Source: Halomonas huangheensis (GTDB lineage Bacteria; Pseudomonadota; Gammaproteobacteria; Pseudomonadales; Halomonadaceae). Taken from it: a stretch of DNA of 64,000 nt. The stretch covers positions 620,001 to 684,000 of the forward strand of contig NZ_CP013106.1 of NCBI RefSeq assembly GCF_001431725.1, read 5' to 3'. The notes beneath the pieces were generated by a model, which saw only the letters and a program-made list of their open reading frames with translations, did not search any database and had not been told where the DNA came from. The position numbers and the translations under genes are program-made. Shown here in pieces: positions 8,118 through 11,018 of this stretch. How positions within the stretch are numbered: the stretch's first letter is position 1; every line of letters starts with the position of its first letter.

Positions 8118-8827
8118 GCGCTGCGCCGATTCTGATCACCGGTGGCGCTCAGCGCCTTGGCCGCCACTGTGCCGAGCGGTTGGTCGGCGATGGTCACCCG
8201 GTGATCATCAGTTATCGACGTGAACGCCCCGAGCTGGAAGAGTTGCGTGGTCGCGGGGTGGTGACCCTCAAGGCAGACTTTTCCACCGAAGCCGGGATTC
8301 TCGATTTCATCGCGCGGCTCAAGCAAAGCGCCGATTCTCTGCGTGCCATTGTCCACAACGCCAGTGATTGGGCCCCCGATAGTCAGGGTGATGAGGCTGG
8401 CGCCAACTTCGAGCGGCTGTTTCGCGTGCATATGCTGGCACCGTACCTGATCAATCTGCACGCTCGTGAGTTGCTGGAGGCCTGCGTCGAGCCGCAGAGC
8501 GATATCGTGCATATCACTGATTTTGTTGCCCAGAAGGGCTCGCGTAAGCATGCTGCCTATGCGGCAACCAAGGCTGGGTTGGATAACATGACACGCTCCT
8601 TTGCTGCGATGTATGCACCACGCATACAGGTCAATGCCATTGCGCCTGCGCTGATAATGCTCAACGCCGGTGACAATGAGGACTATGTCGCCAAGGCAAA
8701 GAGCAAGTCGGCGATGCAGATCGTTCCCGGCCCCGGCGTGGTCTACCAGACGTTGCGCTATGTACTCGACAATCGCTATATCACCGGCGCGACGCTGCCG
8801 CTCGATGGCGGAAGACATCTGGTTTAG
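8114..8827 (+). CDS. folM: Dihydromonapterin reductase FolM-like SDR
   Basis: 237 residues of the short-chain dehydrogenase family. The glycine-rich motif TGGAQRLG near the N-terminus is the FolM/pteridine-reductase variant, and the catalytic YAATK lies at about 155-159. FolM makes tetrahydromonapterin, the cofactor of bacterial phenylalanine hydroxylase, and has weak dihydrofolate reductase activity. The start is GTG at 8114, overlapping the end of the flavin reductase gene, so it is the third gene of a tightly coupled operon with ubiD. Assignment within the SDR family rests on the arginine motif and is fairly secure. Confidence 0.8.
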   Translation: MSAAPILITGGAQRLGRHCAERLVGDGHPVIISYRRERPELEELRGRGVVTLKADFSTEAGILDFIARLKQSADSLRAIVHNASDWAPDSQGDEAGANFERLFRVHMLAPYLINLHARELLEACVEPQSDIVHITDFVAQKGSRKHAAYAATKAGLDNMTRSFAAMYAPRIQVNAIAPALIMLNAGDNEDYVAKAKSKSAMQIVPGPGVVYQTLRYVLDNRYITGATLPLDGGRHLV

Positions 8828-8835
8828 GGCAGCAA

Positions 8836-9200
8836 TGAGAGGGAAGAGGTAAGAGGGAAGTCAGAAGCTGTAAGAAGCTGTAAGAAGCAAGTGAGAAGCT
8901 TTAAGTTGTGAGCTTTAAGTTGTAAGAGGGAAGAAGCTCCAACCCCCCGGCTCGGCTTCCTGTGAGCCGCGATGCGGTGCTTGCCAGCTCTCGGCTCGCA
9001 GCCGGATACTCCTGGCTTCTGGCTTCTGGCTTCTGGCTTCTGGCTTCTGGCTTCTGGCTTCTGGCTTCTGGCTTCTGGCTTCTGGCTTCTGGCTTCTGGC
9101 TTCTGGCTTCTGGCTTCTGGCTTCTGGCTTCTGGCTTCTGGCTTCTGGCTTCTGGCTTCTGGCTTCTGGCTTCTGGCTTCTGGCTTCTGGCTTACGGCTC
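8836..9200. repeat. Heptamer element A (inverted array)
   Basis: The left part (8860-8940) has repeated AAGCTGT, AAGCTTT and AAGTTGT units. A GC-rich core follows (8941-9010). The right part is the complementary orientation, CTGGCTT, repeated from 9012 to 9193. Read on one strand, both arms are RAGCYNN-type heptamers facing each other. The element starts just after the folM stop and ends before the aromatic leader region. Open frames through the array, in several frames, are a by-product of a 7-base unit lacking stop codons. Confidence 0.75.
9012..9193. repeat. 26 perfect tandem copies of CTGGCTT
   Basis: 182 bases consist of exactly 26 uninterrupted copies of the 7-base unit CTGGCTT (AAGCCAG on the other strand). 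The absence of any mismatch implies recent expansion or active homogenisation by slippage. This is the right arm of element A. Confidence 0.97.
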
Positions 9201-9327
9201 GGGCTCTGATTATGCCCGGCCGGATTCGTTGACTCGAGACACTTGCCATTTGCTGCAGGTGCGGGCAGGATAAAAAACAACTCGACGGGCCACTATACTC
9301 AGGCTCATCAGGAAACGGAGACACCAT

Positions 9328-9462
9328 ATGTCTGTTACTGCTCACCAGATGACTGTCATCACCACCTATCAGGGTGGCGGTGTCGTTGGTGCGGCAGGCG
9401 GCTATTGGTTTGGCTTTACCTGGTATTGGTTTGATACCGGGGAGCCGGCTACCGTTTCCTGA
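9328..9462 (+). CDS. Aromatic-rich leader peptide 1 (putative attenuator)
   Basis: A 44-codon frame, ATG at 9328 and TGA at 9460, preceded by CGGAG. Residues 26-35 read YWFGFTWYWF, with three Trp, three Phe and two Tyr among ten codons. It lies upstream of a DAHP synthase gene, the first step of aromatic amino acid synthesis, and is followed by a strong stem-loop. Peptides dense in the regulated amino acid are the hallmark of ribosome-stalling attenuation (trp, phe and his operons). No second function is visible. That it is a leader is inference from composition and position. Confidence 0.7.
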   Translation: MSVTAHQMTVITTYQGGGVVGAAGGYWFGFTWYWFDTGEPATVS

Positions 9463-9530
9463 TCCGCTTGGTTTAAACAACAGGATCAAGCAACAGGATA
9501 GCGAGGCGCTCCCCACCAGGGCCGCCTCTC

Positions 9531-9565
9531 GGAACCCCCGGATGGCAGCCCCATCCGGGGGTTCC
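9531..9565 (+). promoter_or_regulatory. Strong attenuator-like hairpin between the two leader peptides
   Basis: GGAACCCCCGGATGG (9531-9545) pairs perfectly over 15 bases with CCATCCGGGGGTTCC (9551-9565), leaving a 5-base loop. No T-run follows, so it may act with Rho, as a pause site or by RNA protection rather than as a classic terminator. CCGGGG at 9437-9442, just after the aromatic codons of leader 1, could pair with the left arm and form a competing structure. Confidence 0.65.
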
Positions 9566-9600
9566 TGCATTCAGGATTCGGTTCAACAGGAGGGTATGAC

Positions 9601-9762
9601 ATGACCGCATTTCGTGAATTCGCCAGCAGCGCATTCCATGGCCGGTATTACGGCTATGGCTGGCGATTTATCGAGGCGCGGTCGGCCCAGGTGGCCACCT
9701 CCGACCGTGAGCAATCTGGTGGCCAACAGAAGATTCGAAGTCACCGATGCCCACGGAGTTGA
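9601..9762 (+). CDS. Aromatic-rich leader peptide 2 (coupled to DAHP synthase)
   Basis: A 53-codon frame with a very good ribosome site (AGGAGGG, 6 bases before ATG 9601). Its first 23 residues hold four Phe, three Tyr and one Trp, ending in GRYYGYGWRF. The stop at 9760-9762 is 5 bases before the DAHP synthase ATG, so the two are likely translationally coupled. A stem-loop (9679-9707) follows the aromatic stretch directly. It resembles a second stalling peptide, but it could also be a small protein of unknown function. Confidence 0.6.
   Translation: MTAFREFASSAFHGRYYGYGWRFIEARSAQVATSDREQSGGQQKIRSHRCPRS
9679..9707 (+). promoter_or_regulatory. Stem-loop inside leader 2
   Basis: CGGTCGG (9679-9685) pairs with CCGACCG (9701-9707), and an inner AGGT pairs with ACCT across a GGCC loop, leaving a CCC bulge. 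It begins about 8 bases after the last aromatic codon of leader 2, where a stalled ribosome would be expected to disrupt it. Confidence 0.5.
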
Positions 9763-9767
9763 ATGCC

Positions 9768-10835
9768 ATGAATGCCCACACCGCCCTGTCTGTATCTCAC
9801 GAGTTGTCGACTGATGAGGCAGCCAGTATGCCGCTTCCCACCCCGTTGGAACTCCAACGAGAGGTTCCGCTGAGCGCCATGCTCCATGAGCGCGTCGAAG
9901 CCCAGCGTCATGAAATCCGCGATATTCTCGAAGGCCGTGATGATCGTCTGCTGGTGGTGGTCGGGCCCTGCTCGATCCATGATCCCGTTGCAGCGATGGA
10001 ATACGCTCAACGCCTTGCGAAACTGGCGGATCGGGTGCGTGATCGTCTGCTGCTGGTGATGCGTGTTTACGTCGAGAAGCCCCGTACTACGGTTGGCTGG
10101 AAGGGGCTGGCCTACGACCCGGGGCTGGATGGTCAGAGCGACATGTGCCGGGGACTGGAGTTATCGCGACGCCTGATGCGCGATATCGTCGAACTGGGGT
10201 TGCCGGTTGCTACTGAGCTGTTGCAGCCGATGATTGCTCCTTACCTGGATGATCTTCTGGCATGGGTGGCTATCGGTGCGCGGACCACCGAGTCGCAATT
10301 GCATCGTGAACTGGCCAGCGGCCTCAAGTCTGCGGTTGGCTTCAAGAATGCCACCAACGGCGATCTACAGGTGGCGCTGGATGCCATGCAGTCCGCTGCC
10401 CACCCCCATCAGCACTTCGCTATCGGTGCCGATGGACGTCCTGTGATGAAGCAGACCAACGGCAATGACATGACCCACGTAGTACTGCGTGGCGGTCATG
10501 GCGGCCCCAACTACGATGCTGACAGTATTGCGGCTGCTCGCAAGGCCATCACTGCAGGTGGCTTGGCTGTGCGACTGATGGTCGATTGCAGCCATGCCAA
10601 CGCACGCAAGGATCATCGTCGCCAGAGCGAAGTACTGCTTGATGTGCTGGCGCAGCGTGAAACGGGTGACCGAGCCCTGATCGGCGTGATGCTGGAAAGC
10701 CATATTCATGAAGGCAAGCAGTCATTGACGCCGGGCAAGCTGCGCTATGGGGTCTCCGTCACCGATGCCTGTATCGGCTGGGAGACCACCGAGCATCTGC
10801 TGACCCTGGCCGCCGAACGGTTGGCAAGAGTCTAG
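9768..10835 (+). CDS. 3-deoxy-7-phosphoheptulonate (DAHP) synthase, class I
   Basis: 355 residues, the normal length of AroF/AroG/AroH enzymes. Recognisable segments are LLVVVGPCSIHDP, RVYVEKPRTTVGWKGL, GARTTESQLHRELASGL, VGFKNATNGD, LRGGHGGPNYD and the metal-site MVDCSHANA. The enzyme condenses phosphoenolpyruvate with erythrose 4-phosphate, the first committed step to chorismate. I could not decide from sequence whether it is the Phe-, Tyr- or Trp-sensitive isozyme, so no symbol is given. ATG at 9768 was chosen because the longer frame from 9747 overlaps the leader stop. Two aromatic-rich leader frames lie directly upstream. Confidence 0.95.
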   Translation: MNAHTALSVSHELSTDEAASMPLPTPLELQREVPLSAMLHERVEAQRHEIRDILEGRDDRLLVVVGPCSIHDPVAAMEYAQRLAKLADRVRDRLLLVMRVYVEKPRTTVGWKGLAYDPGLDGQSDMCRGLELSRRLMRDIVELGLPVATELLQPMIAPYLDDLLAWVAIGARTTESQLHRELASGLKSAVGFKNATNGDLQVALDAMQSAAHPHQHFAIGADGRPVMKQTNGNDMTHVVLRGGHGGPNYDADSIAAARKAITAGGLAVRLMVDCSHANARKDHRRQSEVLLDVLAQRETGDRALIGVMLESHIHEGKQSLTPGKLRYGVSVTDACIGWETTEHLLTLAAERLARV

Positions 10836-10840
10836 CGCCT

Positions 10841-11018
10841 CTCGAGCGCTAAGCGGTAAGTTACCACTCGAGCGGTAAGCTGTAAGTTATAAGCTGTAAG
10901 TCACCCCGCAGTGACCAGCATGGAGCGGCACTGGACAGCTAGCGGTTCGTAGCCCGCAGTGTCTGTTTGACAGCACCTGGCTCGTAGCTTGTTGCTTGTT
11001 GCTTGCGGCTTACAGCCT
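10841..11018. repeat. Heptamer element B
   Basis: The left arm (10845-10900) is built of AAGCGGT, AAGTTAC, AAGCTGT and AAGTTAT units ending in GTAAGTCACC. The core holds CCCCGCAGTGACC. The right arm (10980-11016) is GTAGCTTGTTGCTTGTTGCTTGCGGCTTAC, which on the other strand reads AAGCCGC, AAGCAAC, AAGCAAC, AAGCTAC. The element fills the gap between the convergent DAHP synthase and transglycosylase genes and ends 3 bases before the latter's stop codon. A terminator-like role for both genes is possible. Confidence 0.7.

Follow-up and report, generated by a model that had tools for sequence, protein, structure and literature searches.

Tandem leader peptides precede the erm resistance genes, where they serve antibiotic-induced translation attenuation and not amino acid control. 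Ribosome-mediated transcription attenuators of the trpL/pheL type are characterized by control codons within a leader ORF, by helices that exclude each other and by a terminator, as described in the available parts of two reports (PMC1183508, PMC11802643). With regard to DAHP synthase genes, the available parts of the corresponding papers describe the Phe-Tyr-Phe leader aroR in front of aroF of Corynebacterium glutamicum, with attenuation under Phe limitation (PMC11802643, PMC4046766), and a predicted regulatory RNA at Shewanella aroF noted as “Attenuator sensing tyr-tRNA” (PMC2659441). The main text of PMC2965389 and PMC8297930 contains no leader terms at the DAHP synthase gene, and no such leader appears in the accessible portion of PMC5343134, which deals with aromatic regulons. 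For Pseudomonas and Halomonas no description of leaders before DAHP synthase was found, which is a weak absence, subscription papers being mostly outside the coverage, and, with the same coverage, no biosynthetic gene preceded by two conserved aromatic leaders in series was found either. Single leader peptides before DAHP synthase are known, aroR and the Shewanella prediction being such cases; the first-pass annotation of the locus presented here had mentioned single-peptide attenuators of aromatic genes but was aware of no double arrangement.

The locus belongs to Halomonas huangheensis and is located in a 64,000-nucleotide stretch of DNA, hereafter called the window. Judging from sequence comparison and folding models, it is probable that a single transcript carries a leader 1 attenuator responding to charged Trp/Tyr/Phe tRNA, a leader 2 that may act on translation, and the DAHP synthase gene.

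Organization of the locus

All the elements are located on the + strand in the order leader 1 (9328-9462), hairpin (9531-9565), leader 2 (9601-9762) and DAHP synthase ATG (9768), so the layout and coordinates of the two aromatic leaders, the 15-base hairpin and the enzyme gene reported in the first-pass annotation are all correct. Leader 1 codes for 44 aa, ends with TGA and is preceded by the ribosome site CGGAGAC (9316..9322) recognized from sequence, with the aromatic run YWFGFTWYWF, the putative control codons, occupying residues 26-35 (9403..9432). Leader 2 codes for 53 aa, has a strong ribosome site CAGGAGGG (9587..9594), likewise recognized from sequence, and carries eight F/Y/W among its first 23 residues, and its TGA (9760-9762) is followed 5 bases further on by the DAHP synthase ATG. 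These details, i.e. the residue numbers of the run, the early aromatic residues, the ribosome site of leader 2 and the stop-start gap, had also been given correctly. Neither leader peptide matched any Pfam or NCBIfam family.

The gene downstream (9768..10835) codes for a type I DAHP synthase of the aroFGH family, with a TIGR00034 match of 452.7 bits against an equivalog cut-off of 173.2 and a match to PF00793. There is an alternative in-frame ATG at 9747, which would overlap leader 2.

A weak candidate promoter (TTGCCA, 17 bases, CAGGAT; 9243..9271), matching the consensus at 8/12 positions and lying under the promoter-scan threshold, is located upstream of leader 1. Among the relatives, a match of at least 9/12 was present in 33/168 regions 5′ of leader 1 and in 1/153 regions between the hairpin and leader 2, the numbers at equal region length being 4/153 vs 1/153. 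There are also 26 perfect copies of the heptamer CTGGCTT at window positions 9012-9193, ending about 50 bases 5′ of the candidate promoter; arrays of this type can change length by slippage and might modulate the promoter. Short imperfect TAAGCTGTAAG-type repeats are found on both sides of the DAHP synthase region, at 8863-8923 and, noticed by eye, at 10850-10900.

Conservation of the two leaders in relatives

The loci compared were picked as best matches to the window's DAHP synthase and are not a random sample; the 213 loci were reduced to 194 distinct 300-base upstream regions, of which 174 contain both leaders, 19 leader 1 only and one leader 2 only, the last being L128, whose leader 1 has three aromatic residues and falls short of the criterion. 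Thus, both frames are kept in relatives, and a lack of such conservation was one of the outcomes that the first-pass annotation had named as refuting its reading. The enzyme match itself is present in 90/90 genomes of the sample of the Halomonas huangheensis genus.

Both leaders were found in all 53 distinct Pseudomonas-type regions (two of these loci being gammaproteobacterial bins), in one of the three distinct regions of a third family, f43, and in 120/130 distinct regions of Halomonadaceae other than Salinicola and the genus g4, while in the latter two all 8 distinct regions (10 loci) possess leader 1 only; the family labels f1 and f21 were assigned from named relatives. The typical cores of leader 1 are YFGYWFSHWRA in Pseudomonas and YWYWFSxGVPAA in Halomonas, and those of leader 2 are YYGYGWRFS or YATYYRYxxxxAWRF. 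Natural losses are represented by L112, where leader 2 is without its Trp and most aromatic residues, and by L115, which has no leader 2 and an intact leader 1. In family f20 (L172-L174) the enzyme gene is preceded by a single leader of another kind, FFWWFGYGFYFS. With the same criterion, no aromatic-rich leader was detected at 15 paralogue-group loci (L175-L189) or at the second DAHP synthase of the same genome (G000:C1:1726740-1727747; L002, L254).

The 213-locus count omits duplicates of the own locus (L083, L160), pattern hits (L153-L159), the f20 loci, the paralogue or non-orthologue loci L002, L254, L072, L074-L082 and L175-L189, the placeholder L250, and L244, for which no alignment was obtained. 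In a search with a DNA pattern for leader 2, 16/145 genomes gave a match, and among the 8 loci fetched only the own one was located at a DAHP synthase gene; a protein search with leader 2 returned three entries, namely that of the window and two relatives. In the genus g3 (G162, G261, G311, G318, G328) the DAHP synthase matches are listed with one internal stop codon.

Leader 1 and its predicted switch

Downstream of the aromatic run, leader 1 contains segments able to form a mutually exclusive chain of helices. Segment 1 (GGGGAGC, 9439..9445) lies within codons that follow the run and pairs with segment 2 (GAGGCG and GCTCCCC, 9503..9514), located after the stop codon; segment 2 may instead pair through GAGGCG with segment 3 (GGGCCGCC, CGCCTC; 9519..9528), this helix 2:3 being the least supported one; and segment 3 pairs either upstream or with its antiterminator partner, segment 4′ (GGCAGCCC, 9544..9551), within the terminator hairpin.

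Co-variation was assessed by setting the duplex energy of segments taken from one species against that of segments exchanged between species in 2000 permutations, which do not remove relatedness, and the structure tests for leader 1 covered 188/213 loci, the other 25 being missed by the search pattern. In the Halomonadaceae-type loci the cognate energy of segment 1 with the post-stop region is -24.53 vs -21.97 kcal/mol for swapped segments (0/2000 permutations), that of 3:4′ is -21.25 vs -19.07 kcal/mol (0/2000), and two control pairings are null (1756/2000 and 1988/2000). Helix 2:3 shows no co-variation in these loci (1940/2000), with chosen windows that cut through segment 2. In the Pseudomonas-type loci, f43 included, the counts out of 2000 are 0 for 1:2, 9 for 2:3, 3 for 3:4′ and 0 for a hairpin formed by the GGGTAT codons with post-stop bases, and 404 and 1726 for the control pairings.

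Positions of helix 1:2 free of the search pattern are paired in 12, 12, 9 and 12 of 12 distinct forms, one position showing five pair types, and those of helix 2:3 in 12, 15 and 17 of 21, its inner pairs being fixed by the pattern and uninformative; up to 30/132 and 51/56 rows per helix were dropped from these counts. From such sequence evidence, helices 1:2 and 3:4′ are well supported and 2:3 in the Halomonadaceae-type loci is putative. Compensatory stem changes in relatives were one check put forward in the first-pass annotation; for leader 1, co-variation is seen in helices 1:2 and 3:4′, with null controls in the Halomonadaceae-type loci.

To model the switch, the RNA ending with 4′ was folded while each codon in turn was covered by a ribosome footprint, as equilibrium folding with kinetics ignored. 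In the window, an A-site at codons -20 to -12, counted from the stop, gives 3:4′ a probability of 0.70-0.87 and one at codon -11 a probability of 0.41, while the other tested positions and the RNA without a ribosome give 0.00-0.11, so the high values cover the aromatic run except for the last Phe (0.01) and, partly, the preceding Trp (0.41). In the Pseudomonas-type leaders the antiterminator is higher on aromatic than on other codons in 49/53 cases and peaks on an aromatic codon in 39/53 (14.3 expected), with 0/24 circular shifts performing as well; the corresponding values for the Halomonadaceae-type leaders are 87/107 and 53/107 (26.0 expected), with 5/24 shifts as good. Without a ribosome, the Halomonadaceae-type RNA is antiterminated with a mean of 0.66, vs 0.04 in the window. 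A delay on the aromatic codons is thus predicted to result in read-through, as expected for a biosynthetic gene.

The terminator-like hairpin itself (9531..9565) has 15 bp, a 5-base loop and an energy of -32.8 kcal/mol. Its T-run is weak in the window, with no proper T-run after the hairpin, and a terminator scan of 8800-9900 found no terminator; in the Pseudomonas relatives a good T-run, mostly TTTTGTTTTT, is located 3′ of it. Taken together, the leader ORF is rich in codons for the products (8/10 aromatic in the run, conserved), and mutually exclusive antiterminator and terminator helices are indicated by the co-variation and the predicted switch, the linking helix 2:3 being weakly supported. 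In silico there is good support for leader 1 behaving as an attenuator of transcription under ribosome control, from which we infer termination in vivo and sensing of tRNA.

Leader 2 and the start of the DAHP synthase gene

The most conserved part of leader 2 is the codon triplet TGG CGA TTT (9661..9669), exact in 188/192 loci with leader 2, i.e. in 135/138 Halomonadaceae-type and 53/54 Pseudomonas-type loci. A locus was counted as possessing leader 2, duplicates included, if it had WR with one more residue and four or more aromatics (192/213 loci); frame 0 is open by construction in the codon count, so the comparison between frames is no evidence. Tyr codons preceding the triplet are mixed (309 TAT and 235 TAC), and in L211 the triplet reads TGG CGA TAT, i.e. 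TTT has been replaced with TAT and an aromatic residue kept. In genomes of this kind, CGA and TTT are as a rule uncommon codons. The leader 2 stop codon is TAG in 51/54 Pseudomonas-type loci, and in the Pseudomonas-type sequences inspected (e.g. L032, L042) a G+C-rich hairpin follows and then the DAHP ribosome site.

This conservation bears on the reading that leader 1 is the sole sensor and leader 2 a mere coupling ORF, bringing ribosomes to the DAHP start, with aromatic codons that are a matter of timing or a remnant. It is a real possibility, if not a likely one, given that leader 2 is missing or degenerate in the 19/194 distinct regions that keep leader 1, including all 10 Salinicola and g4 loci, and that in the window its stop codon lies 5 bases before the next ATG. 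On the other hand, the aromatic codons and the exact TGG CGA TTT are kept across two families, the substitution in L211 is still aromatic, and in the Pseudomonas-type loci the stop and the start are further apart with a hairpin between them. It is quite improbable that leader 2 is a nascent-chain arrest peptide, for which TnaC would be the model, sensing a free aromatic amino acid, stalling at plenty and so breaking the coupling with the DAHP start: such a sign would agree with coupling and WRF is nearly invariant at one position of the peptide, yet the codons CGA and TTT are themselves conserved, which a peptide signal does not need.

As for the preferred reading, with leader 2 acting on translation, several pairings around the DAHP ribosome site were evaluated. 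The first-pass annotation had placed a stem-loop right after the aromatic codons of leader 2, and such a hairpin, a:b2 (9678..9707; GCGGTCGG at 9678-9685 with CCGACCG at 9701-9707), can be drawn and shows a small co-variation effect, but without a ribosome the RNA of the window favours other folds, the pairing probability of a:b2 being 0.00. A possible helix b3:d (9705..9758; 9705-9711 with 9752-9758) would hide the DAHP ribosome site GGAG (9755-9758) by pairing it with codons inside leader 2; in Halomonas it co-varies (0/2000, with 60 of 73 distinct sequences used), and a retest on 101/138 usable loci gave 0/2000 both overall and within classes, with one of the three classes alone giving 1053/2000 and one of three control pairings also reaching 4/2000.

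The predicted effect of ribosome stalls on the accessibility of the site is small. In the window, the DAHP site is 0.16-0.47 unpaired with a ribosome on the aromatic codons of leader 2 vs 0.26 without one; the mean is 0.22-0.39 at all ribosome positions in the Halomonadaceae-type loci (n 97) and 0.39-0.43 in the Pseudomonas long form (n 32), and in the Pseudomonas short form (n 21) the stretch from the site to the ATG changes only from 0.46 to 0.54-0.58 unpaired. Compared to shuffled leaders, the site is not significantly more hidden (0.278 vs 0.324, n 50, p = 0.08). A ribosome on the last four codons of leader 2 leaves the site fully unpaired, but its footprint covers the site, so this is no evidence for coupling.

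Pairing of the leader 2 core TGGCG with the DAHP start region was rejected as a general mechanism, with 0/84 Halomonadaceae-type loci; in Pseudomonas, 9/48 loci reached p ≤ 0.05, the mean longest match being 5.5 vs 4.4 in shuffles. An unsupervised search for column co-variation on leader 2 alignments was dominated by relatedness and was also set aside. Of the suggestion that one leader acts on transcription and the other on translation, the former half is backed in silico by the attenuation predicted for leader 1, and the latter stays a hypothesis; stalls on leader 2 are predicted to shift the access to the DAHP site little and inconsistently.

Relation of leader 1 to the P15 RNA

The Rfam family RF00627 (Pseudomonas sRNA P15) is filed as an sRNA gene without an assigned role, and the P15 RNAs of the literature were equated with it by name. 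No Rfam family reached its cut-off in the window. In a permissive search of 9200-9800, a full-length P15 match was found on leader 1 (9408..9561, + strand) with 26.5 bits against the cut-off of 70 and E values of 0.002 and 0.0037, which leaves the window outside the cut-off membership of RF00627; the other permissive matches, i.e. sX12, His_leader (minus strand) and P15 (minus strand), are weak and were taken as chance.

In the relatives the P15 model passes the cut-off in 9/18 sources, each time on the leader 1 region, and all nine are Pseudomonas-type (75.7-125.7 bits); none of the seven Halomonadaceae sources does so, nor do L169 and L172, and no Rfam family reached its cut-off on leader 2 in any of the 18. 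Out of 145 genomes of the order, searched with strict filters that lose weak matches, 12 were matched (6 over the cut-off), and in 12/12 the match is located just upstream of the DAHP synthase orthologue. In one Pseudomonas-type genus, each of the 25 genomes contains exactly one match above the cut-off, again just upstream of the orthologue in all cases. A second match of 25.9-30.3 bits is present elsewhere in 13/25 of these genomes (e.g. G183:C1:2529984-2530101), and the two of these 13 that were inspected have a terminator-like hairpin and no aromatic ORF. A score of the level found in the window thus lacks specificity on its own, and it is place, ORF and helices that link the window leader to P15.

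That the leader 1 RNA is a trans-acting small RNA adjoining the DAHP synthase gene by chance is highly improbable. Rfam types RF00627 as a gene, and the accessible portions of two reports describe an RNA of that name detected in Pseudomonas aeruginosa by Livny et al. (PMC2375449) and, in a 2026 study, overexpressed as an sRNA candidate (PMC13086519); against this, the element holds a conserved aromatic ORF together with switching helices and a terminator, and above the cut-off it is located directly upstream of the orthologue in 25/25 genomes of one genus. Moreover, P15 was already suspected to be a riboswitch rather than a trans sRNA in the part of PMC2527527 available, although the synteny with the TPP riboswitch used there does not point to the DAHP synthase gene. 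The “P15” named beside MvaT (P16) in the accessible part of PMC10215021 may be something else. Based on the sequence comparison, P15 in Pseudomonas is most likely the terminated leader of this DAHP synthase gene, and a secondary trans role beside the leader function may exist. This reassignment is the firmest new point of the analysis.

The possibility that both leaders are chance ORFs of a G+C-rich leader is practically nil and is refuted by conservation across families, even though short ORFs are frequent (9 kb contain 111 with 30 aa or more), and two aromatic-rich ORFs occurred together in 0/3000 dinucleotide shuffles of 9300-9767. At least one ORF with at least five F/W/Y in 10 residues was obtained in 71/3000 of these shuffles and one with 8 aromatic residues in 10 in 0/3000, leader 1 alone reaching 8/10 in the whole window on both strands.

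Proposed mechanism

When the ribosome is delayed on the aromatic run of leader 1, segment 1 would remain free and pair with segment 2, which would leave segment 3 available for 4′ in the terminator hairpin, and transcription would continue. When the ribosome has moved on, or is absent, segment 3 would be taken up by upstream sequence, probably by segment 2, the terminator would form and a short RNA would be released, which in Pseudomonas is most likely P15. The read-through transcripts would carry leader 2, which may act on DAHP synthase translation, most simply by translational coupling. This role is suggested by the window, where the stop and the start nearly touch and the DAHP ribosome site lies in the last codons of leader 2; the stop codon 5 bases before the start suggests coupling as such. 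The single transcript and all of the action of leader 2 are what we infer from this arrangement.

With pure coupling through leader 2, starvation would lower DAHP synthase, a sign opposite to that of leader 1. The two leaders could then form a band-pass, in which leader 1 would turn transcription on when charged Trp/Tyr/Phe tRNA is scarce and leader 2 would need ribosomes crossing its aromatic codons. We consider this unlikely; if true, synthesis of the enzyme would be confined to moderate shortage and be shut off both at plenty and at collapse, and a biosynthetic gene controlled by two leader peptides of opposite sign would represent a new logic.

Comparison with known systems

With leader 1 assigned in this way, P15, an orphan RNA family that is still entered as sRNA, acquires a concrete function, and attenuator control is suggested for DAHP synthase, with which aromatic synthesis begins, in two industrial hosts, Pseudomonas and Halomonas. 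In the Pseudomonas-type genomes, P15 is the leader 1 element in front of the same gene, beginning at the aromatic core and extending through the terminator. The conservation of leader 2 raises the testable question of what a cell gains from two aromatic leader peptides in series.

Like the attenuators of the trpL/pheL type (E. coli trp, pheA), the locus has control codons within a leader ORF, helices that exclude each other and a terminator-like hairpin. Unlike them, it contains an additional helix (1:2 / 2:3 / 3:4′ / terminator), its control codons cover three amino acids, and a second leader ORF comes next. The aroR leader of Corynebacterium glutamicum is also located before a DAHP synthase gene, but it belongs to a different phylum and is described, in the portions of the papers available, as a single leader, and the Shewanella aroF element, again before a DAHP synthase gene, is a prediction with no tandem leader described in the part of the source available. 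The erm genes likewise possess two leader ORFs in series before one gene, whereas here the leaders are rich in aromatic residues and precede a biosynthetic gene.
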